From Phycisphaera sp. (GTDB taxonomy: Bacteria; Planctomycetota; Phycisphaerae; Phycisphaerales; Zrk34), in NCBI GenBank assembly GCA_016125285.1, contig WGMA01000019.1:1-63365 (forward strand): a DNA stretch of 63,365 bases, given 5' to 3'. The notes beneath the pieces were generated by a model. It saw only the letters and a list, made by a program, of their open reading frames with translations. It made no database searches and was not told the DNA's origin. Below are positions 2,349 through 56,910 of the stretch, piece after piece. Each line of letters begins with the position of its first letter. Position 1 is the first letter of the stretch. Both the position numbers and the translations under genes were made by a program.

Positions 2349-4991
2349 ATGCGTTTTGCGACATGCTGTCTGCTAATCGTGTTCAGCCTCGCCGCCGGGC
2401 TCACCGCCGCCGAGCCGTTCGACGCCAGCCGCCTCCAGGTCACCGTGCTGGACACCGGCCTGAATCGGCCGATGGAACTGGAGGTCGCGCCGGACGGGCG
2501 GATCTTCTACGTCGAGCTCGACGGGCAGATGAAGATCTATCACCCCGACACGCGGCAGACCACCGTCGCGGCGGACTTCAAGGTCTTCACGCCGCAGGAG
2601 AACGGCCTGCTCGGCCTGGCGCTCGACCCGAACTTCGCCAAGACCCAGTGGGTGTATATCCATTACAGCCCCACGGACTACGACGGGCAGTACATCAGCC
2701 GCTTCACGATGAAGGGCGACACGCTGGACTTCGGCAGCGAGCTGCTGCTGCTGCAGTTCAACGAGCAGCGCAAGGAATGCTGTCACCACGCCGGCTCGAT
2801 CGAGTTCGGGCCGGACGGCTGCCTGTACATCGGCGCCGGTGACAACACCAACCCGTTCGGCGACTCCGGCGGCTACGCGCCCATCGATCAGCGGCCGGAC
2901 CGCAGCCCGTGGGACGCCGAGGGTTCGGCGGGCAACACGAACGACCTGCGCGGCAAGATCCTCCGCATCCGCCCGATGCCCGACGGCACCGCCGAGATCC
3001 CCGACGGCAACCTGTTCCCGAAGGACGGCTCGAAGGGGCGGCCGGAGATCTACGTCATGGGCTGTCGCAACCCGTGGCGGATCAACGTCGACCAGAAGAC
3101 CGGCTACCTGTACTGGGGCGAGGTCGGCCCGGACGCGGGCAGCGACAACGACAAGCGCGGGCCGCGCGGCTACGACGAGGTCAACCAGGCACGCGAGGCG
3201 GGCAACTTCGGCTGGCCGTTCTTCGTCGGCAACAACTACGCCTATCACCGCTGGAACTTCGCGACGAATGAGTCGGGCGAGGCGTTCGACCCCGCCAAGC
3301 CGATCAACGAATCGCCGAACAACACCGGCGCGAAGGAACTGCCGCCCGCGCACCCCGCGTTCATCTGGTACCCCGGCGGGTCGTCGCCGGACTTCCCGAT
3401 GCTGCAGACCGGCGGGCGCACGGCGTGCGCCGGTCCCGTGTATCACTTCGACCCGAACCTCAAGTCGGAAACGAAGCTGCCCGACCACTTCGACAACTGC
3501 CTGTTCATCTACGAGTGGTCGCGGCACTGGGTGATGGCGGTGCACCTCGACGCGGACTCGCACATCAAGGAGATCGAGCCGTTCATGCCGGACTACAAGT
3601 TCGTGCGCCCGATCGACCTGACGTTCGGCCCGGACGGTTCGCTGTACGCGCTGGAGTACGGCACGACGTGGGGCAAGAACGACAACGCCCGGATGATTCG
3701 CGTCGACTACATCCGCGGCAACCGCACGCCGGTCGCCAAGGCGACGATCGAGAACAACGTCGGCAAGCAGCCGCTGACGGTGAAGGTTTCGGCCGAGGGC
3801 TCGAGCGACCGCGACGGCGACCAGCTGACGTACCAGTGGTTCCGCCAGGACACCGGCAAGGTGATCGACGGCAAGGACGCGACGATGACGTTCGAGAAGC
3901 CCGGGGCGTTCAACGTGCAGCTGATGGTCAAGGACACGCACGGCGCGGTGGGCATCGCGTCGGCCGCGGTGCTGGTGGGCAACGCGCGGCCGAAGGTCGC
4001 GTTCGAGTACCCGCAGGACGGCGACTTCTTCGAGTGGGAAAAGCCGATCGCGTACAAGGTGAAGGTCAGCGACGAGGAAGACGGCGACGGCGCCGCGGCG
4101 GTGGCGCTGAGCGGCCGATACGAGAGCGGCAAGGCGGACAACGACGACGAGCCGCTGGCGCTGAAGATGATGCGGCACAGCGACTGCTTCAACTGCCACG
4201 CCGTCGACCGCAAGATCGTCGGCCCGCCGTTCATCGAGGTCGCCCGCAAGTACCGCAACGACGCGGCCGGCCAGCAGACCGCCGCGGTGCACATCCTCGG
4301 CGGATCGTCCGGCGTGTGGGGCACCGTCGTGATGCTGCCGCACCCGCAGCACTCGCTCGACGAAACGACGCAGATGGTCAAGTGGATCCTGACGCTGGCC
4401 GATCAGCACGGCGACGCGATCGACAAGGCCGAGCACGCCGGTGAGTTCACGATCGGCAAGAAGCCCAAGGACGCGGTCGGCGGCGCGTACACGCTCACCG
4501 CGTCGTACACCGACAAGGGCTACGGCGCCGTGGGCCCGCTGGCCGGGTCCACGGAGATCAAGCTGCGACCGGCGCAGCTCGAGGTCGAGTCCGCCGACGC
4601 GTACGACAAGATGAAGCTCGGCGGCGTCGGCGACGGCGGCCCGGGCCAGCAGAAGTTCGGCTCCATCGAGAGCGGCGCCTGGGCGCGGTTCAACCACGTC
4701 AGCCTCAAGGGCATCACGCGTGTGACCTGCCGCGTCGCGTCGGGCAACACCGGCGGCACCATCTCGTTCCGCAAGGGCGGCGTCGACGGCGAGGTGCTCG
4801 GCACGGCCGAAGTGCCGTCCGGCAAGGACTGGGGCAAGTACTTCGACGTGGCCGGCGCCATCAAGGACCCGGGCGAGCGATTCGACCTCTTCGTCACATT
4901 CACGCGTGAGGGCGGCGGCGGCGGTCTGATGGATATCAACTGGATCCACTTCCACGCCGACGACGCGGCGCAGAAGGTGTCCAAGCGATAG
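2349..4991 (+). CDS. Secreted PQQ-dependent sugar dehydrogenase-like protein with PKD and cytochrome c domains
   Basis: 880 residues from the ATG at 2349, chosen over an in-frame GTG 45 bases upstream because it begins a clean signal peptide (MRFATCCLLIVFSLAAGLTA) and has GAAGGG upstream. Domains in order: glucose/sorbosone dehydrogenase beta-propeller (about residues 30-455; NGLLGLALDPNF, ECCHHAGSIEFGPDG, GCRNPWRIN, FGPDGSLYALEYG), a PKD domain (about 470-555), a class I cytochrome c with heme site C613-F-N-C616-H617 and a downstream VVMLPHPQH segment, and a C-terminal CBM6-like beta sandwich. It probably oxidises a sugar in the periplasm and passes electrons through its own heme. Planctomycete genomes carry many such fusions. 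The substrate cannot be read from sequence. Confidence 0.88.
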   Translation: MRFATCCLLIVFSLAAGLTAAEPFDASRLQVTVLDTGLNRPMELEVAPDGRIFYVELDGQMKIYHPDTRQTTVAADFKVFTPQENGLLGLALDPNFAKTQWVYIHYSPTDYDGQYISRFTMKGDTLDFGSELLLLQFNEQRKECCHHAGSIEFGPDGCLYIGAGDNTNPFGDSGGYAPIDQRPDRSPWDAEGSAGNTNDLRGKILRIRPMPDGTAEIPDGNLFPKDGSKGRPEIYVMGCRNPWRINVDQKTGYLYWGEVGPDAGSDNDKRGPRGYDEVNQAREAGNFGWPFFVGNNYAYHRWNFATNESGEAFDPAKPINESPNNTGAKELPPAHPAFIWYPGGSSPDFPMLQTGGRTACAGPVYHFDPNLKSETKLPDHFDNCLFIYEWSRHWVMAVHLDADSHIKEIEPFMPDYKFVRPIDLTFGPDGSLYALEYGTTWGKNDNARMIRVDYIRGNRTPVAKATIENNVGKQPLTVKVSAEGSSDRDGDQLTYQWFRQDTGKVIDGKDATMTFEKPGAFNVQLMVKDTHGAVGIASAAVLVGNARPKVAFEYPQDGDFFEWEKPIAYKVKVSDEEDGDGAAAVALSGRYESGKADNDDEPLALKMMRHSDCFNCHAVDRKIVGPPFIEVARKYRNDAAGQQTAAVHILGGSSGVWGTVVMLPHPQHSLDETTQMVKWILTLADQHGDAIDKAEHAGEFTIGKKPKDAVGGAYTLTASYTDKGYGAVGPLAGSTEIKLRPAQLEVESADAYDKMKLGGVGDGGPGQQKFGSIESGAWARFNHVSLKGITRVTCRVASGNTGGTISFRKGGVDGEVLGTAEVPSGKDWGKYFDVAGAIKDPGERFDLFVTFTREGGGGGLMDINWIHFHADDAAQKVSKR

Positions 4992-5099
4992 CGAGTCGAA
5001 TTCGGATGTCGGCGCGATTGGATGGACGCCTCGACTCGCGAGCGGCGGCGTCTTGTTCGGCGAACACCACCGCCGCGCCCGGAACGCGGAGTTCGCGCC

Positions 5100-5154
5100 G
5101 ATGGCTGTGACAGCGGCGAAGCCGCTCCAATACAGAATCGAAAAGCCGAAATCC
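5100..5154. repeat. Dispersed palindromic repeat, intergenic copy (AGCGGC-GAA-GCCGCT plus degenerate CGAAATC tail)
   Basis: The core hairpin is AGCGGC(5112-5117) GAA GCCGCT(5121-5126). About 31 bases around it match the copy inside valS at 48055-48086 with roughly one mismatch. A degenerate CGAAATC-like tail follows. It lies between the convergent dehydrogenase-cytochrome and ptsH genes, so this copy could also act as a transcript-end hairpin. Confidence 0.8.
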
Positions 5155-5159
5155 CCGCG

Positions 5160-5456
5160 CTACTGCTCTTCGGGGTCTTTCTGATCAAACTTGCGATCCG
5201 CGAACGCGACCAGGTCGTTGACCGCGTCCTCCGCGTCCGGGCCCATCGCCTCGATGTCCAGCTCCGTGCCCTGCGTCGCGGCGAGCATCATCAGCTGCAT
5301 GATCGACTTGCCGTCCACCGATTCGCGATCGTTGGAGATCGTGATCTTCGACTTGAACTTGCTGGCCCGCTCGACGAACGACATCGCGGGCCGGGCGTGA
5401 AACCCGAGCCGGTTCTTGATCGTGAACTTCGCCTTGATGGGGTCCGCTTCGCTCAT
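5160..5456 (-). CDS. ptsH: HPr family phosphocarrier protein
   Basis: 98 residues, the normal HPr size. The phosphorylated histidine is His20 in NRLGFHARPA. Ser51 in GKSIMQLMML corresponds to the regulatory Ser46 of Gram-positive HPr, a hint of HPr kinase control. HPr relays phosphate from enzyme I to EIIA proteins. It is the last gene of the hpf-ptsN-ptsH run, 74 bases after ptsN. No sugar-transporting EIIB/EIIC component is in the window, so a regulatory PTS is more likely than a transport PTS. That last point is inference. Confidence 0.95.
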   Translation of the reverse strand: MSEADPIKAKFTIKNRLGFHARPAMSFVERASKFKSKITISNDRESVDGKSIMQLMMLAATQGTELDIEAMGPDAEDAVNDLVAFADRKFDQKDPEEQ

Positions 5457-7854: not shown

Positions 7855-9141
7855 CTACTCGGCGACCCGTTCGATCTCCGCGCCGATGCCGCGAAGCTTC
7901 TCCTCCAGCCGCTCGTAGCCGCGGTCGAGGTGGTACACGCGGTTGACCTTCGTCACACCCTTCGCCGCCATGCCCGCCAGCACCAGGCCCGCCGACGCAC
8001 GCAGGTCCGACGCCATCACCGGCGCCGCCGTCAGCTTCTTCACACCGCTGACCATCACCGTCGGGCCCTGCCGGTAGCACTTGGCGCCCATGCGCGCCAG
8101 CTCCGCGACGTGCAGGAACCGCTCGGGGAAGATCTTCTCGGTCACCATGCTGTTGCCGTCGGCCAGCGTGAGCAGCGCCATCAGCTGCGCCTGCAGGTCG
8201 GTCGGGAAGCCGGGGTGCGGCTGCGTCGTGACGCTGATCGGCTCGAGCCGCCGCGCCGAGCCCACCGACACCGTGCACCGCATCGGGTTGTCCGCGTGCT
8301 CGACCGGCTCGGCCGTCACGCCGATCGCGTTGAGCCGATCCATCGCCGCGGTCAGCGTGTCGAGCGGGCAGTTCTCGATCTTCACGTCGCCGTTGGTGAT
8401 CGCCGCGCCCATGATCAGCGTGCCGGCCTCGATGCGGTCGGCGATCACGCGGTGGTCCACGCCCTTGAGCTCCTTGACGCCCTCGATGATCAGCCGCGGC
8501 GTGCCCGCGCCCGAGATGTTCGCGCCCATCGACGTCAGCATGTCCGCCAGGTCCACGACCTCCGGCTCGCACGCCGCCTGCTCGATCACCGTCGTGCCCT
8601 CCGCCAGCACCGCCGCGCTCATCACGTTCGCCGTGCCCAGCACCGTCGAGCCGAACGGCCCGCCGAGAAAGATCCGCGCGCCGCGCAGCTTCTTCGCCTT
8701 CACGTGGATGTCGCCGCCGTCCAGCGTCACCTCCGCGCCCAGCGCCTCCATGCCGCGCAGGTGCAGGTCGACCGGCCGATCGCCGATCGCGCAGCCGCCC
8801 GGCATCGACACCTTCGCCTCGCCGCGCTTCGCCAGCAGCGGGCCCAGCACGCAGATGCTCGCACGCATCGTCCGCACCACGTCGTAACGCGCGTGCGAGT
8901 TCATCTCGTCCGTCACGCGCATCGTCATCACGTGGTCGTCGCCGTGCTCGATCTCGCAGCCCAGCTCGCGCAGCAGGCTCACCATGTTGCCGATGTCCGA
9001 CAGGTGCGGCACGTCCCGCAGCGTCATCGGCTCCTCGGTCAGCAGCGCAGCGGCCATCAGCGGCAGGCTCGCGTTCTTCGAGCCGCTCACACGCACCGTG
9101 CCTTTAAGACGTTTGCCCCCGTGGATCACGAACGCATCCAT
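7855..9141 (-). CDS. murA: UDP-N-acetylglucosamine 1-carboxyvinyltransferase
   Basis: 428 residues, the usual length. MurA transfers enolpyruvate from PEP to UDP-GlcNAc, the first committed step of peptidoglycan synthesis. Visible signatures are GSKNASLPLMAAALLTEEP near the N-terminus, the catalytic Cys117 in MPGGCAIGDRPVDLHLRG (the Cys/Asp position linked to fosfomycin sensitivity is Cys here), PHPGFPTDLQAQ and DLRASAGLVLAGMAA. The start has a strong AGAGGTGA site. A murA gene matters for planctomycetes because they were once thought to lack peptidoglycan. Confidence 0.97.
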   Translation of the reverse strand: MDAFVIHGGKRLKGTVRVSGSKNASLPLMAAALLTEEPMTLRDVPHLSDIGNMVSLLRELGCEIEHGDDHVMTMRVTDEMNSHARYDVVRTMRASICVLGPLLAKRGEAKVSMPGGCAIGDRPVDLHLRGMEALGAEVTLDGGDIHVKAKKLRGARIFLGGPFGSTVLGTANVMSAAVLAEGTTVIEQAACEPEVVDLADMLTSMGANISGAGTPRLIIEGVKELKGVDHRVIADRIEAGTLIMGAAITNGDVKIENCPLDTLTAAMDRLNAIGVTAEPVEHADNPMRCTVSVGSARRLEPISVTTQPHPGFPTDLQAQLMALLTLADGNSMVTEKIFPERFLHVAELARMGAKCYRQGPTVMVSGVKKLTAAPVMASDLRASAGLVLAGMAAKGVTKVNRVYHLDRGYERLEEKLRGIGAEIERVAE

Positions 9142-9234
9142 GCGTCACCTCTTTGACCTGATGTAAGACGGACCTCATGTCCTGTCCCTGCAATGTACGC
9201 CGCCGCGTGCGCCGACTCAAGGACCGGTGTCGAA

Positions 9235-9918
9235 TCAGCGCGGCAGATCCTCCGCCGTCAGCCCCAGATGCTTGAGCACCTCCGGCGGGGGCCCCGCGAA
9301 CTCCGCCTGCGGGACGTTGCCGATGTAACCGATGTCCGCCCAGCCCTCCGGCGTGGTGTAGAACGCGCTCGACGCCAGGTTCCGCATCACCGCGAAGAAC
9401 ACCGCGCCCTGCTTGAACTCCGGCTTCGCCTTCGGCAGGTAACAGATGTCGTCACAGATCGCGTGCTGCTGCTCCTCGCTGAGCGACGCGAAGTCCTTGC
9501 CGAACCGCTTGGCCGACTCGGCCTCCAGCCACGCCAGCCCGCCGATCACGACGCCGCGGTCGTGCCGCTGCCCGTCGTACGGCGCGCTGATCCACTCGTC
9601 GATGAAGTCCGGCACGCCGACCTTCGACGCGGCGGGCGACTTCTCGTCCTCCGGGATGATCACGTCGCACAACGCCGACGTCGTCTTCAGCTGCTCCGGC
9701 GTCATCGTCCGCGGCCAGGTCACCTCGCCCTTGAGCAGGTCGGGGTCCGTGCCGTAGGGCCGCGCCGTGCCGGGGCCCGAGCCGACGGCGTCCGGCCCGG
9801 TGTCCGCGCCGAACGTGTTCGTGTGCATCGCCGCGATGACCGACGACGCCGTGGCCATCCACTTCAGCGCCTCACGCCGGTCGATCGTCAGGTTGACGGG
9901 TTGCTGCTGATCACTCAT
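9235..9918 (-). CDS. Gluconate 2-dehydrogenase subunit 3-like Tat protein
   Basis: 227 residues. The twin-arginine leader is DRREALKWMATASSVIAAM. The body (SALCDVIIPEDEKSPAASKVGVP, then FIDEWISAPYDG) matches the small subunit of membrane-bound GMC-type dehydrogenases. In that family the small Tat-exported subunit helps export or mature a leaderless GMC flavoprotein. A GMC oxidoreductase of the right kind is in this window at 21227-22933, about 11 kb away on the same strand, so the pair is split. The start has a strong GGAGG site. Confidence 0.85.
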   Translation of the reverse strand: MSDQQQPVNLTIDRREALKWMATASSVIAAMHTNTFGADTGPDAVGSGPGTARPYGTDPDLLKGEVTWPRTMTPEQLKTTSALCDVIIPEDEKSPAASKVGVPDFIDEWISAPYDGQRHDRGVVIGGLAWLEAESAKRFGKDFASLSEEQQHAICDDICYLPKAKPEFKQGAVFFAVMRNLASSAFYTTPEGWADIGYIGNVPQAEFAGPPPEVLKHLGLTAEDLPR

Positions 9919-10044
9919 GCGTGCCTCCAGGTCGAGTGTCGCTCGCGTCGCACCGCAGTGTAACGCATTCCGCCCGGTCCGGTCATCGTGCGCCGCTCGC
10001 CACGCGTGCCGACATGCCGCGGCGCACGGTCACGGGTGACCCAT

Positions 10045-10050
10045 TATACT
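10045..10050 (+). promoter_or_regulatory. Possible -10 element before the sulfotransferase
   Basis: TATACT stands 15 bases before the ATG at 10066 in an otherwise GC-rich spacer. No convincing -35 box is visible, and a start near 10057 would leave a leader of only about 9 bases. Confidence 0.3.
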
Positions 10051-10065
10051 GCCGCCGACCAAGCC

Positions 10066-10902
10066 ATGAACACGACCGCCACACCCGACATCACCGTCGT
10101 CAACGTCATCTCGACGTCGTACTCCGGCTCCACCTGGCTCAACCTGCTTCTCGGCGCACACAGCGAAGCGTTCAGCGTCGGCGAGATGACCGTCATCGAT
10201 AAGCACGGCGCTCCCGAGTGCAAGTTCCACGGCGTCGAGTGCCCGCTGTGGACGCAATTCGACAAGACCTCCGGCGAGAACGCCTTCCACCAGATCGCCC
10301 GCATGACCGGCAATCGCTACCTCGTGGTCAACAACTCGCTGGACTACCTCGACCAGCAGGACCGCGACGGCGTAACCTCCACGTTTGTCCACCTCGTGCG
10401 CGACGGACGGGCGATCCTCGCGTCGACCCTCCGCAAGCGCAGCGACGCGAAGGTCTTCAAGGAGTCGCGCAACTGGGCGCGGTCGACCAGGCGCGACCTC
10501 CGCCTGCTGTCGCGCTACGCCGGGCGCCCGCAGACGCGCGTCCTCTACGAGAAGGCCACCGCGGACACGCCCGGCGAACTCCGCCGCGTGTGCGACGCGA
10601 TCGGCATGCCCTTCGAGCCCGAGATGCTCGCCGTGTGGCGCAACGTCGACCACCTGCTCGGCGGGTCCATCGGCCTGCTCAAGACCGTCGCCGACGAACA
10701 GGGGCACGACCAGCTGCACTACCACCAGAAGCCCGGCAAGAAGCGCAAGGACTGGGACTACTACCAGAAGCAGGACATGAACCCGTTCTCCGGCGAACGC
10801 TGGAAGACCGAGCTGTCCGACAGCCAACTCCGCGTATTCGCGCTCGCGGCGGGGCGGCAGAACCGGTACTACGGCTACCCCAGATCGACCGACCGCCCAT
10901 AA
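10066..10902 (+). CDS. Sulfotransferase family protein
   Basis: 278 residues from ATG 10066. An in-frame GTG at 9988 would add 26 unconserved residues. The N-terminal strand and loop VVNVISTSYSGSTWLNLLLG is the 5'-phosphosulfate loop that binds PAPS. FVHLVRDGRAILAS contains the 3'-phosphate motif (RDGRA). It would transfer sulfate from PAPS to a sugar or other hydroxyl group. The acceptor is unknown. A sulfatase is encoded 17 kb away, and no PAPS synthesis genes are in the window. Confidence 0.85.
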   Translation: MNTTATPDITVVNVISTSYSGSTWLNLLLGAHSEAFSVGEMTVIDKHGAPECKFHGVECPLWTQFDKTSGENAFHQIARMTGNRYLVVNNSLDYLDQQDRDGVTSTFVHLVRDGRAILASTLRKRSDAKVFKESRNWARSTRRDLRLLSRYAGRPQTRVLYEKATADTPGELRRVCDAIGMPFEPEMLAVWRNVDHLLGGSIGLLKTVADEQGHDQLHYHQKPGKKRKDWDYYQKQDMNPFSGERWKTELSDSQLRVFALAAGRQNRYYGYPRSTDRP

Positions 10903-11268
10903 CCGGCGCACGCGTGTCGCAGATCCGGCTTGTCGTGCCGTGCGCGCCGCCGCATCGATCACCGCCGCCGACGCGCGCCGCGACGGTCAACACGTGACTT
11001 ACGACGTTTCATCACCCCGTCACGCGCGCAAGTCGTTGTTTTGCGCCGCGGATCGTCCCGCGCGTGCCATTTTGACGGTACATCAATGGGGCGCGAAAGG
11101 GGCGCCTATGGGGCGCGACCCGGTCACCAACGCGCCTAAACGATCATTTTCAGCGCGCGAAAGGGGCAGAAAACAGCGCGTTTCGCGTGTCACGCCGTGC
11201 GCGCGCACGCGGCGTGCGTGTCGCGAAAACCGGCGCGACACAACAAGTCGCCGTGCCGCTACGCGTGT
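10903..11268. other. Intergenic stretch without recognised gene (366 bases)
   Basis: The sequence is rich in CG and GGGGCGC words (several between 11088 and 11122). No reading frame with a convincing start or protein features was found, and no clear terminator after the sulfotransferase. The genes on both sides converge on this stretch. Confidence 0.6.
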
Positions 11269-12477
11269 TCACTTCTCCGTGCCGAACAGCTCGCGGAAGC
11301 GTTTGGCGGCGTTGGGGAACTCCGTGCCTTCGCGGTGGCCGGAGTCGGGGATGCCGGGGGAGAGCTGGTGGCGGAGGTCGTCGGTGTTGACGTCGAAGTA
11401 GCAATGGAACGCCACGTTGTTCGCTGGGTCGGTGATGAACGCGTGCATGCGTTCGATGAACAGCGGGTTGTCGAGGCCGCAGTGCTGGTGGTTGGCGCGG
11501 ACGACGCCCCATTCGGGGATCGCCAGCGGCTTGCCGTGGTCTTTGGCGAACTGTGACCAGAACGCCAGGCCGCGCTTCGAGCCGTAGTGCCAGTCGTTCC
11601 ACGCCTTGAGCCGGCGGCGTTCGATCTCCTCGGCGCTGGCGTCCGCGGGCAGGGGGTACGCGCCGTCGATCCACGTCTCGTCGTAGACGTCGACGCCGAC
11701 GTAGTCGACGTACTCGTCGCCGGGCCAGGCCTCGTCGGCGGAGAACTGCTGATCGCCGAGCGTCGGGTTCCAGCAGAACTTCAGCGCGTCACCGCCCGGC
11801 ACGCTGCGCATCGTCGTGACGATCCGCCGCCAGTAGGCGATGAACGCGTCGGTCCTGCCCTTGGCGCGCCACGCGTACCAGTCGCCGTTGAACTCCCAGC
11901 CGGGTCGGAGGATCGTGTCGCCCAGGCCGTACTTCACGAGGTTGTTCGCCAGGTCGCGGATGTGCTGGTCGTACTCGCCGGCGGCGCCGCGCTCGAGCGA
12001 CACCGGCACGCCGACGCCCTTCGCGCCCTGCGTGGGGCCGCTGCCGTCGACCGGGCCGGCGAGGATCGGGATCGAAAAGATCAGCCGTCGGCCGGGCTTC
12101 GCCTCGACCCACTTCGACCACGCGTCGAGCCACCACGTCGGCCAGCCGACGCTGTCCCACGTCTCGGCGCCGATGAAGTCCAGACCCCACACCGTGTCGC
12201 GGCCGAGCCACTGGCCGAACGCGTCGACGCCCTTCGTGCCGTTCGGCCAGTGGTACGTGCCGATGACCGGGTCGACGATCGCCGGCGGCGCGGGCTGCGG
12301 CTCGGCGGGTGCGGGTGTCGCCGCATCGGGGTTCGTCGACTGCGTCTTCGTCGCCACGGCGTTCGCCGCGGGCTTTGCCGCCGGCTCTTCCCGCGCGCAG
12401 GCCGACAGCGGCATGGCCGTCAGCATCAACATGACGACGTGTAACCCCGCGCGCCGCGCCGTGTGCGTCTGATTCAT
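11269..12477 (-). CDS. GH26-like glycoside hydrolase lipoprotein
   Basis: 402 residues. The lipobox is MPLSAC with Cys27, followed by an Ala/Pro-rich linker to about residue 68. The catalytic domain shows the two GH26-type glutamates: Glu195 in LRPGWEFNGDWYAW (acid/base) and Glu322 in PLAIPEWGVV (nucleophile), with DYVGVDVYDETW between them. GH26 enzymes cut beta-mannans or related beta-glycans. The exact specificity is not visible. It would be anchored in a membrane and act outside the cytoplasm. Confidence 0.82.
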   Translation of the reverse strand: MNQTHTARRAGLHVVMLMLTAMPLSACAREEPAAKPAANAVATKTQSTNPDAATPAPAEPQPAPPAIVDPVIGTYHWPNGTKGVDAFGQWLGRDTVWGLDFIGAETWDSVGWPTWWLDAWSKWVEAKPGRRLIFSIPILAGPVDGSGPTQGAKGVGVPVSLERGAAGEYDQHIRDLANNLVKYGLGDTILRPGWEFNGDWYAWRAKGRTDAFIAYWRRIVTTMRSVPGGDALKFCWNPTLGDQQFSADEAWPGDEYVDYVGVDVYDETWIDGAYPLPADASAEEIERRRLKAWNDWHYGSKRGLAFWSQFAKDHGKPLAIPEWGVVRANHQHCGLDNPLFIERMHAFITDPANNVAFHCYFDVNTDDLRHQLSPGIPDSGHREGTEFPNAAKRFRELFGTEK

Positions 12478-12596
12478 GATCGTGCCCTTCGATCGGTGTC
12501 GTTGAAAGAGGCGCCATCACCGCCCGCCGGGAAGGCGACGGCTCGTGCCCGATGGTGATTGTATCGGATCGCGGGATTACGCGGTGCGCCGCCGGG

Positions 12597-15164
12597 TCAG
12601 GCGGACTCGGGCCGCAGGTAGGGTCGCATGCGTTCGGCGAGTTTGACGGCGTTGTCGCCTCGGAGCATCGCCATGTGTGAACCGGGTGTCGTTTCGACGC
12701 GGCACCCGCCGGCGAACCACCGGCTCCAGCCGAGATCGGGTAGCCAGCGGTAGCCGATGTGCAGGCGTTGCTCTTCGGCGACGAACACCACCGCGCCGCA
12801 GTCGACCGCGCTCGGTTGGTACACCCCGGAGATCTTGTAGAGCCTGCGGCGCCGGGTGAGCGGGGTGTCGGGTTCGTCGTTGTCTGCGGGCTGTCGCAGG
12901 CGATCCCACCGGAGGGCCAGTCGTTGGGGGATGCGGCGGGCTTGCCGGAGGTGATCGACGAACCAGTGTGTTCGGCCGAAGCGCCGGCTGCCGGCGTAGC
13001 AGGTATCGATCAGGCCGAGGAAGGCGACGGTCTGGCCCTGCTGCTGAAGCTGCCGCGCGGCCTCGACGGCGTAGATGCCTCCGGCCGAGTGGCCCGCCAG
13101 TCGGTAGGGTCCGGTCGGCTGTTGCTGGCGGATGACCTCGACGTAGCGGGCGGCGCGTCGCTGGATCGTCGCCTGGGTTGCGGGTTCGGCGGTGTCGCCG
13201 GTCGTCGCCTCGTCGGCGGCGTAGACGCCGTAGACCGGATGATCGGCGCCGAGCGCGCGGGCGAGCTCGCGGTAGGCGTGCAGGCCGGCGAGGCAGAAGA
13301 GCGGCGTGCCAGGGCCCGCGGGTTGCAGCGCCACGGCGCGCACCGCGCGGGACGCGCCGCCGGCGGCCTTCAGCCGCCGCGCCATCTTCGCCACGGTGGG
13401 AGACTCGAACAGGTCGGCCAGCGGCACGGTGGTCCCGAACGTCTTCTCGAGAGCCGTGGCGAGTTCGATGGCCAACATCGAATGGCCGCCGAGTTCGAAG
13501 AAATCGTCGTGAACGCCGAGCTCGCCGACGCGGAGCAGGTCCCGCCAGATCGCGGCGATCAGGATCTCGGCGTCGTCGGACGGCGGGACGTAAGGCTGGT
13601 CGAGCGCGGGGCGATCCTGGAAGGTGATCGGCGTGAGGCGGGTGCGGTCGACCTTTCCGTGTCCGGAGCGGGGCAGGTTGTCCAGGAAGGCCACGTACCG
13701 CGGGATCATGTACGCGGGGATCATCGGCGACAGGCCTCGGCGGATCTGGGCGACCGTGATCGTGCGTCCGGGGCTCGGCACGACATGAGCCGCAAGGACG
13801 TCGTCGCCGTTGTCGTCGACCTGGCCGAGCACGACGGCGTCGGCCACACCGTCGAGCCGCAGCAGCGCAGCGGTGACCTCGGCCGGGTCGATCGTATAGC
13901 CTCGGATCTTGACGCGGTGATCGCGTCGGCCGCGGAGGCGCAGCTCGCCGGTGGCGTCGATCACCCCGAGATCGCCGGTGAGATACACGCGGTTCGGGCC
14001 GCCGTCGGGATCGTCGAAGAAGGCGGCGTCGTTCAGGTCGGGCCGACGCCAATAGCCCTGCATCAGGTATCGGCTGCGTACCCCGACCTGGCCGACAGAC
14101 CCGGCGGGCAGCGGCCGCAGCGCGTCGTCCACGATCAGCACGTCCATGTCCTCGACAGGCAGGCCGACGCCAACGAACTCTTCATCGAAGGCGGTGTCAC
14201 AATTGACAACCGCCTGACGGACCGTCGAGGTCTCGGTGAGCGACAACGCGTGGATCAGTCGCGGGCGATCGGGGAAGCGGCTCAGGAAGCGGCGTGCCAG
14301 TTCGGAGGGCAGTCCGTCACCGGCGACAAACACTTCTCGCAGATCGGCAAGCTCGACTCCGTTCGCCGAGTCGACCAGACGCCGCAGCATATGAACGGGT
14401 GTGTGCAGGATGTTGATCCGCTCGTCGCGCAGGCATTGGGCGAAGTCTTTGAGATCGTCGACGTGCCGATCGGACACCATGGTCATGCCGTTGATCAGTG
14501 CGCAGTACAGCGCGCGCTGGCCGCCGGCGAAGGTGAACGATCCGGGACGGTAGAGGCGGTCGCCGTCTTGGACCCTCAGCGCGCAACTGAATCGAAGCAC
14601 TGCGTGTAGCCAGTTCGCGTGCGACCGCGTCGCCCCCTTGGGTCTCGCGGTTGATCCGGAGGTGTACAGGATCGTGGCCAGGTCGTCGGGATCGTGGCTC
14701 GCGTGGTCCGTCGCGCCGGTTTGGGCGGATTCGAGCGAAGCGAGGTCCGCGGCGGGGAAGCCCCAATCCCGCACCGGGCCGTCGTTCGAACGGATGATCA
14801 CCAGCTGTGGCTCGGTTTCGGCGATGATGGCGCGGACGCGGTCCGGAGCTCGTTCGCCATCAATAGGCACGGCGATCTTGCCCGCGGCCTGGACGCCGAG
14901 CATGGCCACGATCTGATCGAGCGACTTGTCGATCAGCACGACGACCGGCTGATTGCCCTTGCCGATCCGATCGAGGATCTCGCAGCCGACACGGAGCGAT
15001 CTGTCGCGTAGCTGACCGTACGTCAGCTGCTGCCGCCCGATCTGCACGGCGCAGCGTTCGGGGGTCAGCGTTGCCTGTTCGTCGAAGCGCCTCCACAGCG
15101 TGTCCCGGCAGTGGGCCGCGCGCGTCTCGGGGGCGTCCATGATGCTTGAAAGCGCCGACATCAT
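12597..15164 (-). CDS. NRPS-like synthetase: adenylation - carrier - thioesterase (A-T-TE), no condensation domain
   Basis: 855 residues. The adenylation domain (about 20-510) has YTSGSTARPKG (167-177), LYLTGDLG-type A7 at 393-400 and the A10 lysine Lys504 in SGHGKVDR. In the A4 motif, FAGGQRALYCALING aligned to FDxSVWE puts Ala213 where alpha-amino-acid-activating domains have Asp, so the substrate may lack a normal alpha-amino group. The carrier domain (about 530-600) has the phosphopantetheine Ser562 in LGGHSML. The thioesterase (about 615-850) has Ser693 in GHSAGG, a likely Asp720 and His829 in PGSHMAM. A-T-TE enzymes of this layout include atromentin/quinone-type synthetases in fungi. 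The start overlaps the IDO-like stop by 4 bases (ATGA), so the two are translationally coupled. The product is unknown. Confidence 0.9.
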   Translation of the reverse strand: MMSALSSIMDAPETRAAHCRDTLWRRFDEQATLTPERCAVQIGRQQLTYGQLRDRSLRVGCEILDRIGKGNQPVVVLIDKSLDQIVAMLGVQAAGKIAVPIDGERAPDRVRAIIAETEPQLVIIRSNDGPVRDWGFPAADLASLESAQTGATDHASHDPDDLATILYTSGSTARPKGATRSHANWLHAVLRFSCALRVQDGDRLYRPGSFTFAGGQRALYCALINGMTMVSDRHVDDLKDFAQCLRDERINILHTPVHMLRRLVDSANGVELADLREVFVAGDGLPSELARRFLSRFPDRPRLIHALSLTETSTVRQAVVNCDTAFDEEFVGVGLPVEDMDVLIVDDALRPLPAGSVGQVGVRSRYLMQGYWRRPDLNDAAFFDDPDGGPNRVYLTGDLGVIDATGELRLRGRRDHRVKIRGYTIDPAEVTAALLRLDGVADAVVLGQVDDNGDDVLAAHVVPSPGRTITVAQIRRGLSPMIPAYMIPRYVAFLDNLPRSGHGKVDRTRLTPITFQDRPALDQPYVPPSDDAEILIAAIWRDLLRVGELGVHDDFFELGGHSMLAIELATALEKTFGTTVPLADLFESPTVAKMARRLKAAGGASRAVRAVALQPAGPGTPLFCLAGLHAYRELARALGADHPVYGVYAADEATTGDTAEPATQATIQRRAARYVEVIRQQQPTGPYRLAGHSAGGIYAVEAARQLQQQGQTVAFLGLIDTCYAGSRRFGRTHWFVDHLRQARRIPQRLALRWDRLRQPADNDEPDTPLTRRRRLYKISGVYQPSAVDCGAVVFVAEEQRLHIGYRWLPDLGWSRWFAGGCRVETTPGSHMAMLRGDNAVKLAERMRPYLRPESA

Positions 15165-16357
15165 TCGACTCCCGGGTCGGTGGCGCGGATCGTGGCGTCG
15201 CGGTGGTGACGCAGGTAGTCGATCGGCGGCGTGCCCCCGGTTCCGACCGAGGCCGGATTGGAGGCGCTGTCGATCGCGGACCCCTTGTGCGCGTAGACGT
15301 AGTCGTGCGCGATTTTCAGGTGGACGTTGCGGAACTCAGCGAGTTGCCTGATACACGCGCTGTAGGTCGACGTGAGCCCGGCGTCGCCGCGCTCACGAAC
15401 CAGTGTGCGGACCGACGAGGTTTCCATCCACTCCAGGAACTCACGATGGGCCGGCGGCATGTAGTCGCGCATGTCGCGGAGGTGGTCGTTGAGGTGATCG
15501 TTGGGATGCTCGACGCCGACCGCCGCGTCGATAGCCGGAACAACGGTGCTCTGCGCGCCGGTCTCGCCGCGGAAGCTCTGCGGACCGTCGAACGCATCGA
15601 CGCCGTCGTAACGCATGCCGCCCGGCAGCGCGGGGTTGTTCGTCCACCCGTGCGTGAAGGGCCGCACGCGCAGGAAGTAGACCGTCGGATCGCAGCTCGC
15701 TCGCATCTTCTCGAACGTTGCCGTCATCGCGACGATGCCGTCCCCCAACGCCGAGAGCAGCCCGGTTAGCGTCTCGACGTCCGACGCTTCGGCGGCCTGA
15801 TGCAGGCGGACGCACAGATCGAGCAGCCCGCCCGCCTGCGCCTCGACCGCCACGTGGACCAGGATGAACCACGCTTCGTCGGTGCCGCCGTACATGTTGA
15901 TGCGCGTAGCGATATTCGACAGGGTGAAGCCAGCGGCCGGATCGAGCAGCCGCCAGTTGCAAAGCACGTAGTCCGCGTAGCTCATGATCGGCGGCACACC
16001 CAGCGCGTTCGACACGGCGTACAACGGCCGAGCCAGTTGCGGCGGCAGGTGGGTCGTGGTCTGACGCGAACCGAAGACGTAGGTCTGCGTCATGGTGCTC
16101 AACAGCAGCTTCGCACGCCGCAGGTCCGCCGGTGAATCGAGCAGCGGCGTGCAGTCGAGTTCGGGCATCGCCGCGACCGCGTCCCGGACCCCGTCGATCG
16201 CCAGCAGCGACGTCAGTCGTCCGGCGATCATCTCCCACGCAGCGAACTCCGCTGGCAGTCGATCCGTCGCCTCATAAAGAAAGCCGTGACCACTGGACAG
16301 CCCAAACCGCTCGAGGATCGACTCGGCAGAATCTTCCGATTGCAGGTTCGTTGTCAT
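15161..16357 (-). CDS. Indoleamine 2,3-dioxygenase-like heme protein
   Basis: 398 residues, the size of IDO. Family blocks are LGVPPIMSYADYVLCNW, LRVRPFTHGWTNNPALPGGM, FRGETGAQSTVVPAIDAAVG, the proximal heme ligand His346 in EFRNVHLKIAHDYV, and the C-terminal GTGGTPPIDYLRHHRDAT. IDO opens the indole ring of tryptophan to N-formylkynurenine using O2. Fine substrate choice (Trp, substituted Trp or another indole) cannot be read. It is the first gene of a two-gene unit with the A-T-TE synthetase, which suggests it makes or tailors that enzyme's precursor. No kynurenine formamidase or kynureninase is visible nearby. Confidence 0.85.
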   Translation of the reverse strand: MTTNLQSEDSAESILERFGLSSGHGFLYEATDRLPAEFAAWEMIAGRLTSLLAIDGVRDAVAAMPELDCTPLLDSPADLRRAKLLLSTMTQTYVFGSRQTTTHLPPQLARPLYAVSNALGVPPIMSYADYVLCNWRLLDPAAGFTLSNIATRINMYGGTDEAWFILVHVAVEAQAGGLLDLCVRLHQAAEASDVETLTGLLSALGDGIVAMTATFEKMRASCDPTVYFLRVRPFTHGWTNNPALPGGMRYDGVDAFDGPQSFRGETGAQSTVVPAIDAAVGVEHPNDHLNDHLRDMRDYMPPAHREFLEWMETSSVRTLVRERGDAGLTSTYSACIRQLAEFRNVHLKIAHDYVYAHKGSAIDSASNPASVGTGGTPPIDYLRHHRDATIRATDPGVE

Positions 16358-16523
16358 TCTTTCTCCCAGACACCCTAGAGACGCATCAAATCAGCCTCAG
16401 ATTGTAATCGCAAATCGTGCCGTGGCTCAACAGTGTGCCCGACGCCGCGCATTGCGGCGGATTCATCGCACTCTTCGGGCAATCTGCGTTCGAAACCACG
16501 CATGCCGTGCCGCTTTGATCGGG

Positions 16524-19034
16524 TCACACCGGCTTCTGGTCCTTGCGCGTGGTCCACTGGTCCGTGTCCGGGTCGCCGAGCTGGACGGTATAAACGCTGT
16601 CGCCGAAGACCCATGGCTCAACGCTGCTGTCGGTCAGGCGGATCGCGTAGACCAGTTCGTTGGTCGACTGGTCGATCACCTTGAGCACGGGTTGCTTGAC
16701 GCCGTCGGCGGTGATCTTGGGCAGTCGGCCGGTGATCTTGCGGGCGTAGTTGTCGCGCTGGGCGATGGTGTGGGGGAAGCCGGGGTACTGGTCGGCGTCG
16801 CCGGGCTTGTTCAGGTCGATCAGGAAGCGGTACGACTCGCAGGTGTAGGTGCGTTTGGCGCGGTCGACGCGGATGACGCCGAAGCCGCCGGTGCGGTCGT
16901 CGGCCCAGTCGTAGCGGTTGCTCTTGCCGCGGCCGGTGCCTACGGGGTTGCCCACGGCGTACATGTACAGCAGGTTGCCGAAGCCGTCGCGGTACTCGCC
17001 GGTGTTGGGCAGGTTGTGATCGGGGCGGTTGGCGACGGGGCGTTTGATCTCGTCGGTGCGCCACCAGCGCTGGTAGATGTTGCTGATCGCCGGGGAGGTG
17101 AACGACCAGAACGCGTCGTGCTGCTCGTCGACGCCGTACTGCAGCAGGGTGGTGAGGTGCTGGTCGCCGTTGAGGTGGATCGGGAAGGCCTTGCGGATGA
17201 TGCGCAGCGCGTGGTTGCGCGGGGTCTGCGGCCAGCCGCCGGAGTCGAGGTCCGCCAGGAGGAAGTTGTCGTGATTGCCGTGATGCGTGGCGGCGTTGGC
17301 GAAGACGGTCTCGCTGAGCAGGACCTTCATATCCGCGCCGCGCCAATCGCCGACCCAGTGTTCGAGGAACTTGTGCTGACGATCGCCGAGCAGCTCGAGG
17401 CCGGGCTTGTCGAGCGTGGAGGTGTCGAAGTTCGGATCGGGGACCCAGTCGCCGCGGCCCTTGCCGGTGTCGACGAATTCCGGGCCGGACTTGAACTGCC
17501 GGTCGGCGACGATCGCGAAGCTGACGCGTCCGTAGACCATGTCGCCGTAGTAGACGCTGATGTCCTGCTGCACGGGCGTGGGGTCGAAGAAGTCGGGGTT
17601 GTGTCCGCAGTTGGTGCGGTGGACGACGTTGACCATGCGGGCCGGCTCCATGTACCCGCCGTCGCTCGACGTGCTGCCGCCTTCGCGCATCGGCTTGCCG
17701 GCCTCGCCCCAGATGTTGCCCTGAAGCACGTCGTGATCGTCGGGCAGGCAGACGGTCGGCCGGTCGCGCATCACGTCGCCGAACGCCCAGCCGAACAGGT
17801 ACCACTTGCGCAGGTAGTTGAGGATCGCGCGGTCCGCGGGGTTGCGGATGATGCCGTACCCGCCGTTGGGCTCGTAGATCTGATCGCCGGAGAAGTACAG
17901 CATGTCCGGGTCGGCCGTGGCCAGGTTCCGCGCGACCGGCTCGTAAGGAAAGCCGTGGTAGAACTGACACGTCAGCGAACCGATCACCAGCGGGCGGTCG
18001 AGCGGCTCCTTGCGGATCGTGCCGGCGTACTGCGCGTCGCCGTACACCAGGCGGTAGGGCGTGGCGACCGTCGGGTCCCACTTCGCGATGCGGAACGTCG
18101 CGGTGCACGCGTCGGCGTCGACGGGTTGCTCGGCAAGCCGCGTCCACTTGCCGTCGCGCTGCACCTCCAGCGTGACGCTCTGCGGGTCGGTCTTGCCCAT
18201 CGGCGGCAGCTGCGCGGTGATCTTCATCACGTAGCCGTCGTCGCCGCGGCTGTTGCTCAGCGTGTGCAACGCGAACAGGATCGGCCCGAACGCCTGCTGC
18301 GGGTGGTAGTCGAACTTGTCGCCGGACACGGTCCACGCGTTGAACCGGCACTGCGAGCCGTCCTTCGCGTTGCCGTGATTGTTGACCAGCGCGACGTTGC
18401 CGTAGAGCTGGTCCGGCGCGGCCTTGATCTCGGCGTCGACCTGGCCGACCGTTTTGCCCGCGGCGTTCGTGGCGGTGAGCGTCGCGGCGTGCTTGTCGCC
18501 GGCCGGCCTGACCGACAGCTTCAGCGTGATGTCCGCAAGGTCCGCCGCGTCGTCGAGCTTCGCCGTCGCGCCCGCCAGCATGAGCGTGCGGTTGGACTTG
18601 ACCAGCGCGACCCAGCCGCCGCCGAAGAAGCAGTTGCCGCGGTAGTCGTTGACCTCGTCGTGGATGCCGAACCTGAACCCGCCCGAGCCGTTCTTGCCCG
18701 TGTGTGTCATGCCCAGCCGCACGGACATCTCGAACGCCTCGGCGCGTGGCGCCATCTGGTGCTTGAGCAGGTGCACGTTGCGGTCGTCGGCCCGGCTGAT
18801 GCACTCCAGTTGACCGTCGGCGACGCGCCAGTCCTCCATCGGGTTCGCCCAGTACTCGGGCCCGGCCCACACGCGGTCGGGCGTCTTCGCGAAGTCGCCG
18901 CGGAACGCCGCCGCGCCCGCCGAGCCGGCCTCGCCGCGTGTCTCACCCATCGCGCTCAGCGCCATCAACCCCGCCGACGTCACCGCCGCGGACTCCATGA
19001 ACTGCCGACGTGTCGGCCCGTTGTTCTGTGACAT
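16524..19034 (-). CDS. PhoD-like alkaline phosphatase family protein (Tat-exported)
   Basis: 836 residues. The Tat leader is TRRQFMESAAVTSAG. The N-terminal third looks like a beta-sandwich (LamG-like) module; the C-terminal part is a PhoD-type metallophosphatase with MLYFSGDQIYEPN, VCLPDDHDVLQGNIWG, HHGNHDNF, HLNGDQHLTTL and FWSFTSPAIS. PhoD enzymes hydrolyse phosphodiesters and monoesters with Ca/Fe. The long N-terminal module suggests a polymer or surface substrate, which is inference. It is 166 bases upstream of the IDO-like gene on the same strand, so a functional link is possible but not shown. Confidence 0.85.
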   Translation of the reverse strand: MSQNNGPTRRQFMESAAVTSAGLMALSAMGETRGEAGSAGAAAFRGDFAKTPDRVWAGPEYWANPMEDWRVADGQLECISRADDRNVHLLKHQMAPRAEAFEMSVRLGMTHTGKNGSGGFRFGIHDEVNDYRGNCFFGGGWVALVKSNRTLMLAGATAKLDDAADLADITLKLSVRPAGDKHAATLTATNAAGKTVGQVDAEIKAAPDQLYGNVALVNNHGNAKDGSQCRFNAWTVSGDKFDYHPQQAFGPILFALHTLSNSRGDDGYVMKITAQLPPMGKTDPQSVTLEVQRDGKWTRLAEQPVDADACTATFRIAKWDPTVATPYRLVYGDAQYAGTIRKEPLDRPLVIGSLTCQFYHGFPYEPVARNLATADPDMLYFSGDQIYEPNGGYGIIRNPADRAILNYLRKWYLFGWAFGDVMRDRPTVCLPDDHDVLQGNIWGEAGKPMREGGSTSSDGGYMEPARMVNVVHRTNCGHNPDFFDPTPVQQDISVYYGDMVYGRVSFAIVADRQFKSGPEFVDTGKGRGDWVPDPNFDTSTLDKPGLELLGDRQHKFLEHWVGDWRGADMKVLLSETVFANAATHHGNHDNFLLADLDSGGWPQTPRNHALRIIRKAFPIHLNGDQHLTTLLQYGVDEQHDAFWSFTSPAISNIYQRWWRTDEIKRPVANRPDHNLPNTGEYRDGFGNLLYMYAVGNPVGTGRGKSNRYDWADDRTGGFGVIRVDRAKRTYTCESYRFLIDLNKPGDADQYPGFPHTIAQRDNYARKITGRLPKITADGVKQPVLKVIDQSTNELVYAIRLTDSSVEPWVFGDSVYTVQLGDPDTDQWTTRKDQKPV

Positions 19035-53425: not shown

Positions 53426-54698
<1,273 letters not shown>

Positions 54699-54709
<11 letters not shown>

Positions 54710-56171
54710 GGCGGTCGCCTCCGTTGCGCAGGTGTTCGATGCGGCGGAGGAACGACTGCATCACGCGGTCGTACAGCTCGCTCTTCAGCACGCGGTCCTC
54801 GTAGCCCGCCTCGAGGTTGGGGTTGTCGTTGACCTCGATGACGACGGCGCGGCTGCCGACCTGCTTGACGTCGACGCCGTACAGCCCGTCGCCCATCAGC
54901 TTCGCCGCACGCACCGCGACGCTGACCACGCGCTTCGGCGCGTCCTCCAGCCGCACGGCCTTGACGCTGCCGTACCGCCCGCCGCTCGCGTGGTCGACGA
55001 TCTGCCAGTGCTTCTTGGCCATGTGGTACTGACAGACGTGCAGCGGCTTGCCGTCGAGCACGCCCACCCGCCAGTCGAAGTCCGTCGGCATGAAGCCCTG
55101 CGCGACGACCAGGTCGGAGTCCGCGAGCAGCGCCGCGACCTTCTCGCGGTACTCGTCGACGGTCTCGGCCTTCGTCACGCCCATCGAGAACGCGCTGTCG
55201 GGCTGCTTGAGCACGATCGGCAGGCCGATCTGCTCGAGCACGGCGTCGACGTTGTCCTTGTGGATGATGCCCGTCGGCGGCGTCGGGATGCCCTTGAGCG
55301 TCAGCCGCTCGGCGAGGAACACCTTGTTGGCGCAGCGGGCGATCGACGCCGGGTCGTCGATCACCGCGAGCCCCGCGGCCTCGGCGCGGCGCGCGAAGCG
55401 GAACGTGTAGTGATCCACCGCGGTCGTCGTGCGGATGAACAGCGCGTCGTACTCGGCGATCGAGCCGTAGTCGTCGCGCGTGATCAGCTCCGCGGCGATG
55501 TCGTGACGCGCGGCGCTGCGGATGAACTTGTCGAGCGCGACCTCGTCGCTCGGCGGCGAGTCCTCGGCCGGGTCGTGCAGGATCGCCATGAAGTAGCGCG
55601 CCTTGCGCCCGGCGCGCCCGGACCACGACTTGTGCGTGAAGTACTTCGTCGCGGACTCCAGCACGGTCGAGCGGTGCGTGTCGGGCACCTCGTCGAAGCC
55701 GATCGCGCGGATGCCCTGCCACGTCCACTTGCCCTCGCGGTACACGAACTGCGCCCGCAGCATCGGGCTCGGGAACAGGTTGAACAGCCGCCGGCCCAGC
55801 GTGCGGTCACGCTTCGTGAGGGTGCGGCCGAAGTAGATGCTCAGCTCGAACCGCTCGGACTTGATCGGCCGGAGCGTCGTCTGGATCAGGTGGTCGAGCT
55901 CTTCGGTGATCACGCGGCTGAGCACCGGCGACTTCATGTCCTGGATGGTCACGATGTCGGGGCGCGGCTTGTGCCCGCGCGCCTCGGCGAGCAGCGACAC
56001 GTAGTAGCCCAGCGTCTGGTAGGCGTACGACCGGCACAGGTTCAGCACGCGCACGCCGCGCAGCTTGTTGTAGTTTGGGTCCGTCAGGTACGCGCGCGCC
56101 GCGACGATCTCGACGCCGGGTATCTGCAGCGGCCAGTTCGTGGGGTTGTTGACGACCAGAAGAAACCGCAT
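54699..56171 (-). CDS. RimK-like ATP-grasp ligase with RLAN N-terminal domain
   Basis: 490 residues from ATG 56171. The N-terminal part (to about residue 190; VVNNPTNWPLQIPGVEIVA, VLNLCRSYAYQTLGYYVSLLA) matches the RimK-like ATP-grasp N-terminal domain. The ATP-grasp core has NKVFLAERLTLKGIPTPPT, LPIVLKQPDSAFSMGV, DFDWRVGVLDGKPLHVCQY and VVIEVNDNPNLEAGYED with the metal-binding Glu-Asn. It should link an amino acid to a carboxyl group. It starts 1 base after the C39-like stop codon and overlaps the GCS2 gene. Confidence 0.92.
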
Positions 56172-56172
56172 G

Positions 56173-56910
56173 TCAGGCTCCGTTGTCCGTTGCGGCATCG
56201 GGGGCCGCCGAGTCGGCGTCGGGTGGCGTGAGGATCAGCAGCTTGGCGTCGTACGTCACGATGCCCAGCAGGATCGCCCCGACGAGGCGATCGATCCCGA
56301 TCTCGTAGTGGTGCCGCCCGGGTTCCGGCTTCTGCAGGAACGGGTCGGCGATGTGCGCCGTGCGGCGCTGACGGTCCAGGCCGTGCACGACGACGAAGTG
56401 CCCGGTCGGCTCGCCGAGCAGGTCGTCGGGCTGCATGTCGTCCTGCCGCTCGCGCACGCACTGATAGAGCCACGTCGCGTTGAGTCCGGCGATGAACGGG
56501 ATACCGCTCGACAGCAGATCGACGAGCAGCTCGTCGGTGATGTCGTTCATGTACAGCTCGCCGCCGGCCTCGAGGAACTCGATGTACGCCTCGGTCGCCG
56601 TGCGGAGCTTGTGCCGCGCCTTGACCGCGGCCTGGGCACGGAGGCGTTCGACGAGGTCGACCTCCGGGCCGAACCACGTGGGGTCGAACGTGCGCAGGTC
56701 GCAGGTATAGATCGTCGCGCCGTATCCGCGCTGCATCGCGTGCAGCGCGAGCATCACCGCGAGCGTGCCGCCGCCGGGCAGTCGGCGCGTCTCGTCGATG
56801 ACCTGCTCCAGCGACAGGTCCACGCCGAAGTGGCGGTACATCGCGTGCAGACACGCGGGCCCGCAGGTCAGCAGGTCGGGCTGCGGCGTGATGGTAAACG
56901 GGATCTCCAT
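56173..56910 (-). CDS. Peptidase C39-like cysteine protease
   Basis: 245 residues from ATG 56910. The papain-like site is ITPQPDLLTCGPACLHAMY (oxyanion Gln10, catalytic Cys16), GHFVVVHGLD (His) and AHIADPF (Asp/Asn position). No bacteriocin-export ABC domains are attached. It has no signal peptide. In other bacteria this type is a neighbour of RLAN-RimK ligases, sometimes fused to GNAT. It may cleave or transfer a peptide bond in the product. Confidence 0.85.
   Translation of the reverse strand: MEIPFTITPQPDLLTCGPACLHAMYRHFGVDLSLEQVIDETRRLPGGGTLAVMLALHAMQRGYGATIYTCDLRTFDPTWFGPEVDLVERLRAQAAVKARHKLRTATEAYIEFLEAGGELYMNDITDELLVDLLSSGIPFIAGLNATWLYQCVRERQDDMQPDDLLGEPTGHFVVVHGLDRQRRTAHIADPFLQKPEPGRHHYEIGIDRLVGAILLGIVTYDAKLLILTPPDADSAAPDAATDNGA

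Follow-up and report, generated by a model that had tools for sequence, protein, structure and literature searches.

An IDO-family dioxygenase gene overlapping an A-T-TE synthetase gene in Phycisphaera: a candidate two-gene biosynthetic operon

The window analyzed here is a stretch of 63,365 nucleotides from a Phycisphaera sp. genome (phylum Planctomycetota; assembly GCA_016125285.1, contig WGMA01000019.1), in which a gene for an IDO-family heme dioxygenase (398 aa, 15161..16357, minus strand) runs directly into a gene for a synthetase resembling a nonribosomal peptide synthetase (NRPS; 855 aa, 12597..15164, minus strand) and composed of adenylation (A), carrier (T) and thioesterase (TE) domains. 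The two open reading frames (ORFs) share the four bases ATGA at 15161..15164 (minus strand), where the synthetase start ATG overlaps the IDO stop TGA (junction ...GTCGAATGATG...), and the synthetase start region contains two adjacent ATG codons. Both ORFs and their overlap had been described in an earlier note on this DNA and were confirmed on the junction sequence; the arrangement suggests that translation of the IDO and the synthetase is coupled. Long family matches, intact active sites and a common codon signature (see below) argue that neither ORF is a product of chance. Upstream of the IDO start, a motif scan identified the promoter-like element TTGAGC-18-TACAAT (16401..16430, minus strand), a weak indication, as one site of this type was found in 9000-17500 against 0.6 expected.

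The IDO matches Pfam family PF01231 with a score of 307.4 bits (E = 1.8e-91; family cut-off 26 bits) over profile positions 2-411 of 412, and matches solved IDO2 and IDO1 chains by sequence with E values down to 2.7e-56. Comparison with 98 other IDO sequences revealed that the heme His346 is kept together with Tyr127, Phe164, His168, Tyr227, Phe228, Arg232 and GTGG at 372-375, residues whose roles at the heme and substrate we presume from human IDO1 numbering. The earlier IDO-like assignment is thereby upheld by both the full-length family match and the presence of His346; the protein appears to be an IDO-family member with its checked catalytic residues intact, and dioxygenase activity is predicted.

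In the synthetase, the Pfam domains follow in the order AMP-binding, AMP-binding_C, PP-binding and Thioesterase, with no condensation (C) domain detected at E ≤ 0.001. Alignment places the A domain at residues ~27-504, with Lys504 present, the carrier serine at Ser562 and an intact TE triad of Ser693, Asp720 and His830, so that the three residues singled out previously (His346 in the IDO, Ser562 and Ser693 here) all occupy their proposed positions. The host genome (97.32% complete) contains one match to the ACPS family, in a 272-aa ORF that we take, from its length and motifs, to be a phosphopantetheinyl transferase of the Sfp type. Homologues of the synthetase are distant: the best are 30-35% identical among the top matches listed from 294 phylum genomes and ~30% identical in plasmids, and no characterized homologue was identified among these listed matches.

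The two genes share a codon signature that ends on both sides of the pair. The G+C fraction at third codon positions (GC3) is 336/398 (0.844) for the IDO and 723/855 (0.846) for the synthetase (difference p = 0.93), compared to 792/836 (0.947) for the PhoD-like gene upstream of the pair (16524-19034) and 380/402 (0.945) for the GH26 gene downstream of it (11269-12477); the contrast between the pair (1059/1253) and its two flanking genes (1172/1238) gives a Fisher p of 4e-17. In a leave-one-out codon score over the 44 called ORFs, the IDO (0.325) and synthetase (0.342) rank ninth and tenth from the bottom, whereas the two neighbors score 0.579 and 0.576. As the signature is common to the pair and ends at both neighbors, we infer that exactly these two genes were imported as one unit. 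The PhoD-like and GH26 genes were considered as additional operon members and rejected on codon usage and on the gaps that separate them from the pair, 166 bases on the PhoD-like side and 119 bases on the GH26 side.

The host genome was then searched for enzymes that would place the IDO in kynurenine metabolism. Neither TDO (PF03301) nor PF04199 formamidase was detected (other formamidase families were not searched), and the kynureninase model TIGR01814 reached just 30 bits against a cut-off of 246.4, positive controls being detected in all three cases; 3-HAO also gave no match, but its control matched nowhere, and this result is not counted. The kynureninase and formamidase expected of a kynurenine pathway to NAD or anthranilate were thus not found, and, together with the lack of TDO, this led us to reject ordinary kynurenine catabolism as the principal explanation. 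The same absence of a competing kynureninase above cut-off or of a PF04199 formamidase would suit a different use of kynurenine, in which the IDO makes N-formylkynurenine, formate is lost, and the A-T-TE enzyme activates the kynurenine and releases an ester, lactam or dimer. The retained IDO active-site residues are consistent with such a route, as is the fungal analogy, in which NRPSs are proposed to take up kynurenine that arises when the IDO product deformylates spontaneously (PMC7448278, PMC9598734, both in the portions available). We nevertheless consider it unlikely, for reasons that lie in the adenylation pocket.

When the synthetase was aligned with LgrA and six homologues, the position of the alpha-amino-binding Asp (GrsA 235) was found to be occupied by Ala213, and the Pro of motif A5 (Pro483 in the numbering of the LgrA alignment) by Leu309. 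The two changes go together in the seven-protein alignment, where the two proteins with the Asp keep the A5 Pro and the five without it also lack the Pro. The residues assigned to the pocket, matched to GrsA positions by eye, are A213, G214, R217, H254, F279, A281, A306, T314, V315 and K504. According to the accessible text of a 2024 review (PMC11253843), loss of the Asp is described for A domains that act on hydroxy, keto and aryl acids, and in the alpha-keto-acid domain of StsA the A5 Pro is lost as well, its restoration abolishing activity; the synthetase displays both features of this StsA-derived hallmark for aryl-alpha-keto-acid activation. With Ala213 and Leu309, the A domain therefore seems poorly suited to kynurenine or tryptophan and well suited to an alpha-keto acid, which disfavors the earlier suggestion that a kynurenine product is activated. 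More probably, the substrate is an aryl keto acid; indole-3-pyruvate is favored because an IDO is encoded beside the synthetase. The argument against kynurenine is softened by McyG, which the same part of the review gives as an exception that activates Phe with Val in place of the Asp, and by the unlike pocket code of a fungal kynurenine domain (PMC7448278, in the portion available).

Together, the ATGA overlap, the unity of codon usage, the intact active sites and the precedents set by RalA/EchA and by fungal IDO and NRPS pairs (see below) lead us to read the locus as a two-gene operon. Our favored interpretation, to which we assign a probability of roughly 0.4, is that the operon was acquired horizontally for the synthesis of a small aromatic metabolite and combines a keto-acid A-T-TE enzyme with an indole-opening IDO. 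The translationally coupled two-gene biosynthetic unit proposed at the outset thus remains the best reading, and has gained weight from the codon signature and because searches of the genome revealed no TDO, no PF04199 formamidase and no kynureninase above cut-off. In the mechanism that we envisage, the A domain would activate an aryl alpha-keto acid, for which indole-3-pyruvate derived from tryptophan is the most likely candidate, and load it onto Ser562 of the carrier domain, which would have been made active by the Sfp-like phosphopantetheinyl transferase of the genome. The TE domain would then release the product, probably joining two units by analogy with other keto-acid A-T-TE enzymes, and the IDO would open an indole ring, whether in the substrate, in the acid on the carrier or in the product after release, to give a 2-formamidophenyl-ketone unit. 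The import of the pair, its substrate, the order of the steps and the product are all conjectured from the sequences. In a bolder form, which is speculative and which we consider quite unlikely, the IDO has shifted from free tryptophan to an indole acid that is bound to or released from the A-T-TE enzyme and whose ring it opens, making the pair a minimal bacterial route from an indole acid to a 2-formamidophenyl ketone that could cyclize to a quinolone or a ring resembling kynurenate; this chemistry, from indole acid through the ketone to the ring, was not met in the literature found.

Several observations weigh against the operon reading. The first concerns its recurrence: the IDO/A-T-TE pair has been seen once, in this genome. 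PF01231 is present in 2/392 phylum genomes, 3/397 class genomes and 1/61 relatives (overlapping samples, with the present genome, which encodes a single IDO, counted each time), and tblastn with the synthetase found no A-T-TE gene in the fetched flanks of the other IDO loci (0/85, L002-L086), at least 3 kb being available on both sides of the IDO in 63 of the 80 scan loci. Over all 86 loci (these 85 and our own), the synthetase retrieved, besides itself, weak A-domain matches in three (21-23% identity, 45-80 bits), one of which carries the annotation acyl-CoA synthetase. The closest IDO relative, at locus L007, has no A-T-TE gene in the 5.3 kb upstream of it or in the 3.9 kb downstream of it, where the contig ends, and none was found on the DNA of 15 further IDO loci with flanks of ~1.6 kb or less (L113-L127) or of three enlarged neighborhoods (L129-L131). 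Plasmids searched with the protein query yielded IDO in 10 records, and the four neighborhoods examined held no second pair; no IDO match was returned from phages (protein query) or viral contigs (alignment query). A conserved pairing in relatives, set beforehand as a test of the proposal, was thus not observed.

The second concerns A-T-TE genes that stand apart from any IDO. Stand-alone A-T-TE genes were identified in five other phylum genomes (L133, L134, L135, L136 and L137), three of which show both pocket changes; none of the five carries an IDO, either in its fetched stretch or in the screen of 392 genomes that includes them all and in which the present genome and G377 alone were positive. 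In the genome of the L007 relative, a gene on a different contig from the IDO specifies an A-T protein that stands alone and shows these pocket changes too (L138 9111-10958, minus strand). A second A-T-TE gene, recognized by its Pfam domains, also lies elsewhere in the present genome (contig C9 ~53700-56525, minus strand; L132 8201-11026), and it too lacks the alpha-amino-binding Asp (by eye). As A-T-TE genes occur without an IDO both in the phylum and in the same genome, the substrate could be something other than an indole, and the pairing may be accidental. Moreover, no aminotransferase was seen among the nearest neighbors read (PhoD-like, GH26 and sulfotransferase-like genes), and the codon evidence has its own weaknesses: 8 of the 44 called ORFs deviate more than the IDO does (six with 102-287 codons, some of them possibly real genes, and a mutually overlapping pair of ~420 codons each that looks doubtful), and low expression can also produce a codon deviation.

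These points would be explained if the genes were unrelated and merely imported together, the IDO serving tryptophan or indole turnover, the A-T-TE gene being an orphan common in the phylum, and the overlap an accident of operon packing. The lack of a second pair among the loci examined and the stand-alone A-T-TE genes in this and the five other genomes favor such an explanation, whereas a four-base overlap combined with one codon signature bounded on both sides does not, and no downstream kynurenine enzyme was found that would make tryptophan turnover useful. On balance, we regard it as somewhat unlikely and retain the two-gene operon.

A further alternative was raised by the relatives of the IDO. 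A single-sequence scan of genome_contigs gave no match, whereas an alignment-based scan retrieved 200 relatives, the best 80 of them being retained. Among these 80, the closest is L007, from a gammaproteobacterial metagenome-assembled genome, with 55% identity; the other 79, mostly proteobacterial, are 37-45% identical over the best segment. IDO occurs in 9/109 genomes of the order to which L007 belongs. The tree groups the IDO with L007 (support 100/100); this clade sits on a long stem and is separate from the other two class IDOs, which come from the same order as the present genome and are 37% and 33% identical to its IDO. The two clade members agree on a deviating residue at several otherwise fixed or nearly fixed sites, for example Met155, where 98/98 other sequences carry Phe, and Thr235, where 98/98 carry Ile or Leu. 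The clade adjoins proteobacterial IDOs, including those of Erythrobacteraceae, with weak support (89/71) that may reflect a long-branch join. The characterized enzymes of this proteobacterial branch, from Erythrobacter litoralis and Neptuniibacter caesariensis, turn over tryptophan very slowly (PMC4217691, in the portion available). The position of the clade in the tree, the low rates of these enzymes and the unusual Thr235 could be taken to mean that the present protein likewise has little dioxygenase activity and serves the pathway through a different heme function. We find this very doubtful, as the checked catalytic residues are kept and the published slow rates concern tryptophan and O2, not other substrates.

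The surroundings of the other IDO genes differ from those described here. An ORF family that we take from its sequence to be Lrp/AsnC-like regulators occurs in the flanks of 36/85 IDO loci (L002-L086), as expected for tryptophan-responsive genes; none was noticed beside the IDO of the window. At L007, the IDO is divergent from an ORF that resembles an ATP-grasp ligase by eye (3817-5160, minus strand) and for which Pfam gave just a sub-threshold EF-hand match; the L007 IDO thus possibly also adjoins a carboxylate-activating enzyme. In a genome of the same order as ours, an unusual arrangement places the IDO 7 bases after a multicopper oxidase gene (L130 7956-10620, plus strand). Within the window, a sulfotransferase-like gene (9988-10902, plus strand; PF13469, 45.4 bits) lies beyond the GH26 gene and convergent with it, with intermediate codon use (0.457 in the leave-one-out score of the called ORFs and 0.46 in the comparison of the pair with its flanks); its product could modify the product of the pair.

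If the operon reading is true, the dedicated use of an IDO in specialized metabolism extends from fungi to bacteria, in the form of just two overlapping genes, and the pair offers a direct way to learn what substrate is used by the stand-alone A-T-TE enzymes that recur in the phylum. The nearest parallels are the fungal clusters that pair an IDO with an NRPS, namely terreazepine tzpA/tzpB, nanangelenin nanA/nanC and pseudofisnin pseA/pseB, where the IDO gene likewise adjoins an NRPS-type gene and is regarded as reserved for making the product (PMC7448278, PMC9598734, both in the portions available); an IDO is present in 118 of ~38,000 fungal clusters (PMC7448278). The same sources describe TzpA with two A, two C and three T domains, as opposed to the single A-T-TE here, and fungal products that use anthranilate and kynurenine, whereas the present A domain lacks the alpha-amino-binding Asp. 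The multi-domain NRPS with a C domain that typifies the fungal systems was not found (no C domain at E ≤ 0.001) and, unlike in the fungal clusters, the genes overlap and the host is bacterial. RalA and EchA are A-T-TE enzymes that, like the fungal quinone synthetases and the synthetase described here, combine A, carrier and TE domains without a C domain. They are named as bacterial counterparts of the quinone synthetases in the accessible part of PMC10316625, so that the earlier description of A-T-TE enzymes without C domains as fungal is correct for fungi but not in an exclusive sense. The quinone synthetases carry Val instead of Asp at the first code position, where the present enzyme has Ala, and no IDO is mentioned with them or with RalA and EchA in that part of the source; the likeness is one of domain layout and Asp loss. 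In bacteria, DptJ is a heme enzyme that opens the tryptophan ring to supply an NRPS pathway, that of daptomycin (PMC7448278), but it is a TDO of the separate family PF03301, which was not detected in this genome. The Erythrobacter-branch proteobacterial IDOs share the Pfam family and form the nearest large clade (with weak support), with no A-T-TE gene in their fetched flanks. No bacterial pairing of an IDO with an adenylation-domain or NRPS-like gene was recognized among the top-ranked results of an open-access literature search of limited reach; the earlier statement that no bacterial two-gene pathway of this form is described stands to that extent, although it overstated the novelty, given the known fungal IDO and NRPS pairs. 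Fungal IDO and NRPS pairs and bacterial A-T-TE relatives were thus known already; what appears to be new here is a bacterial IDO gene that overlaps an A-T-TE gene.

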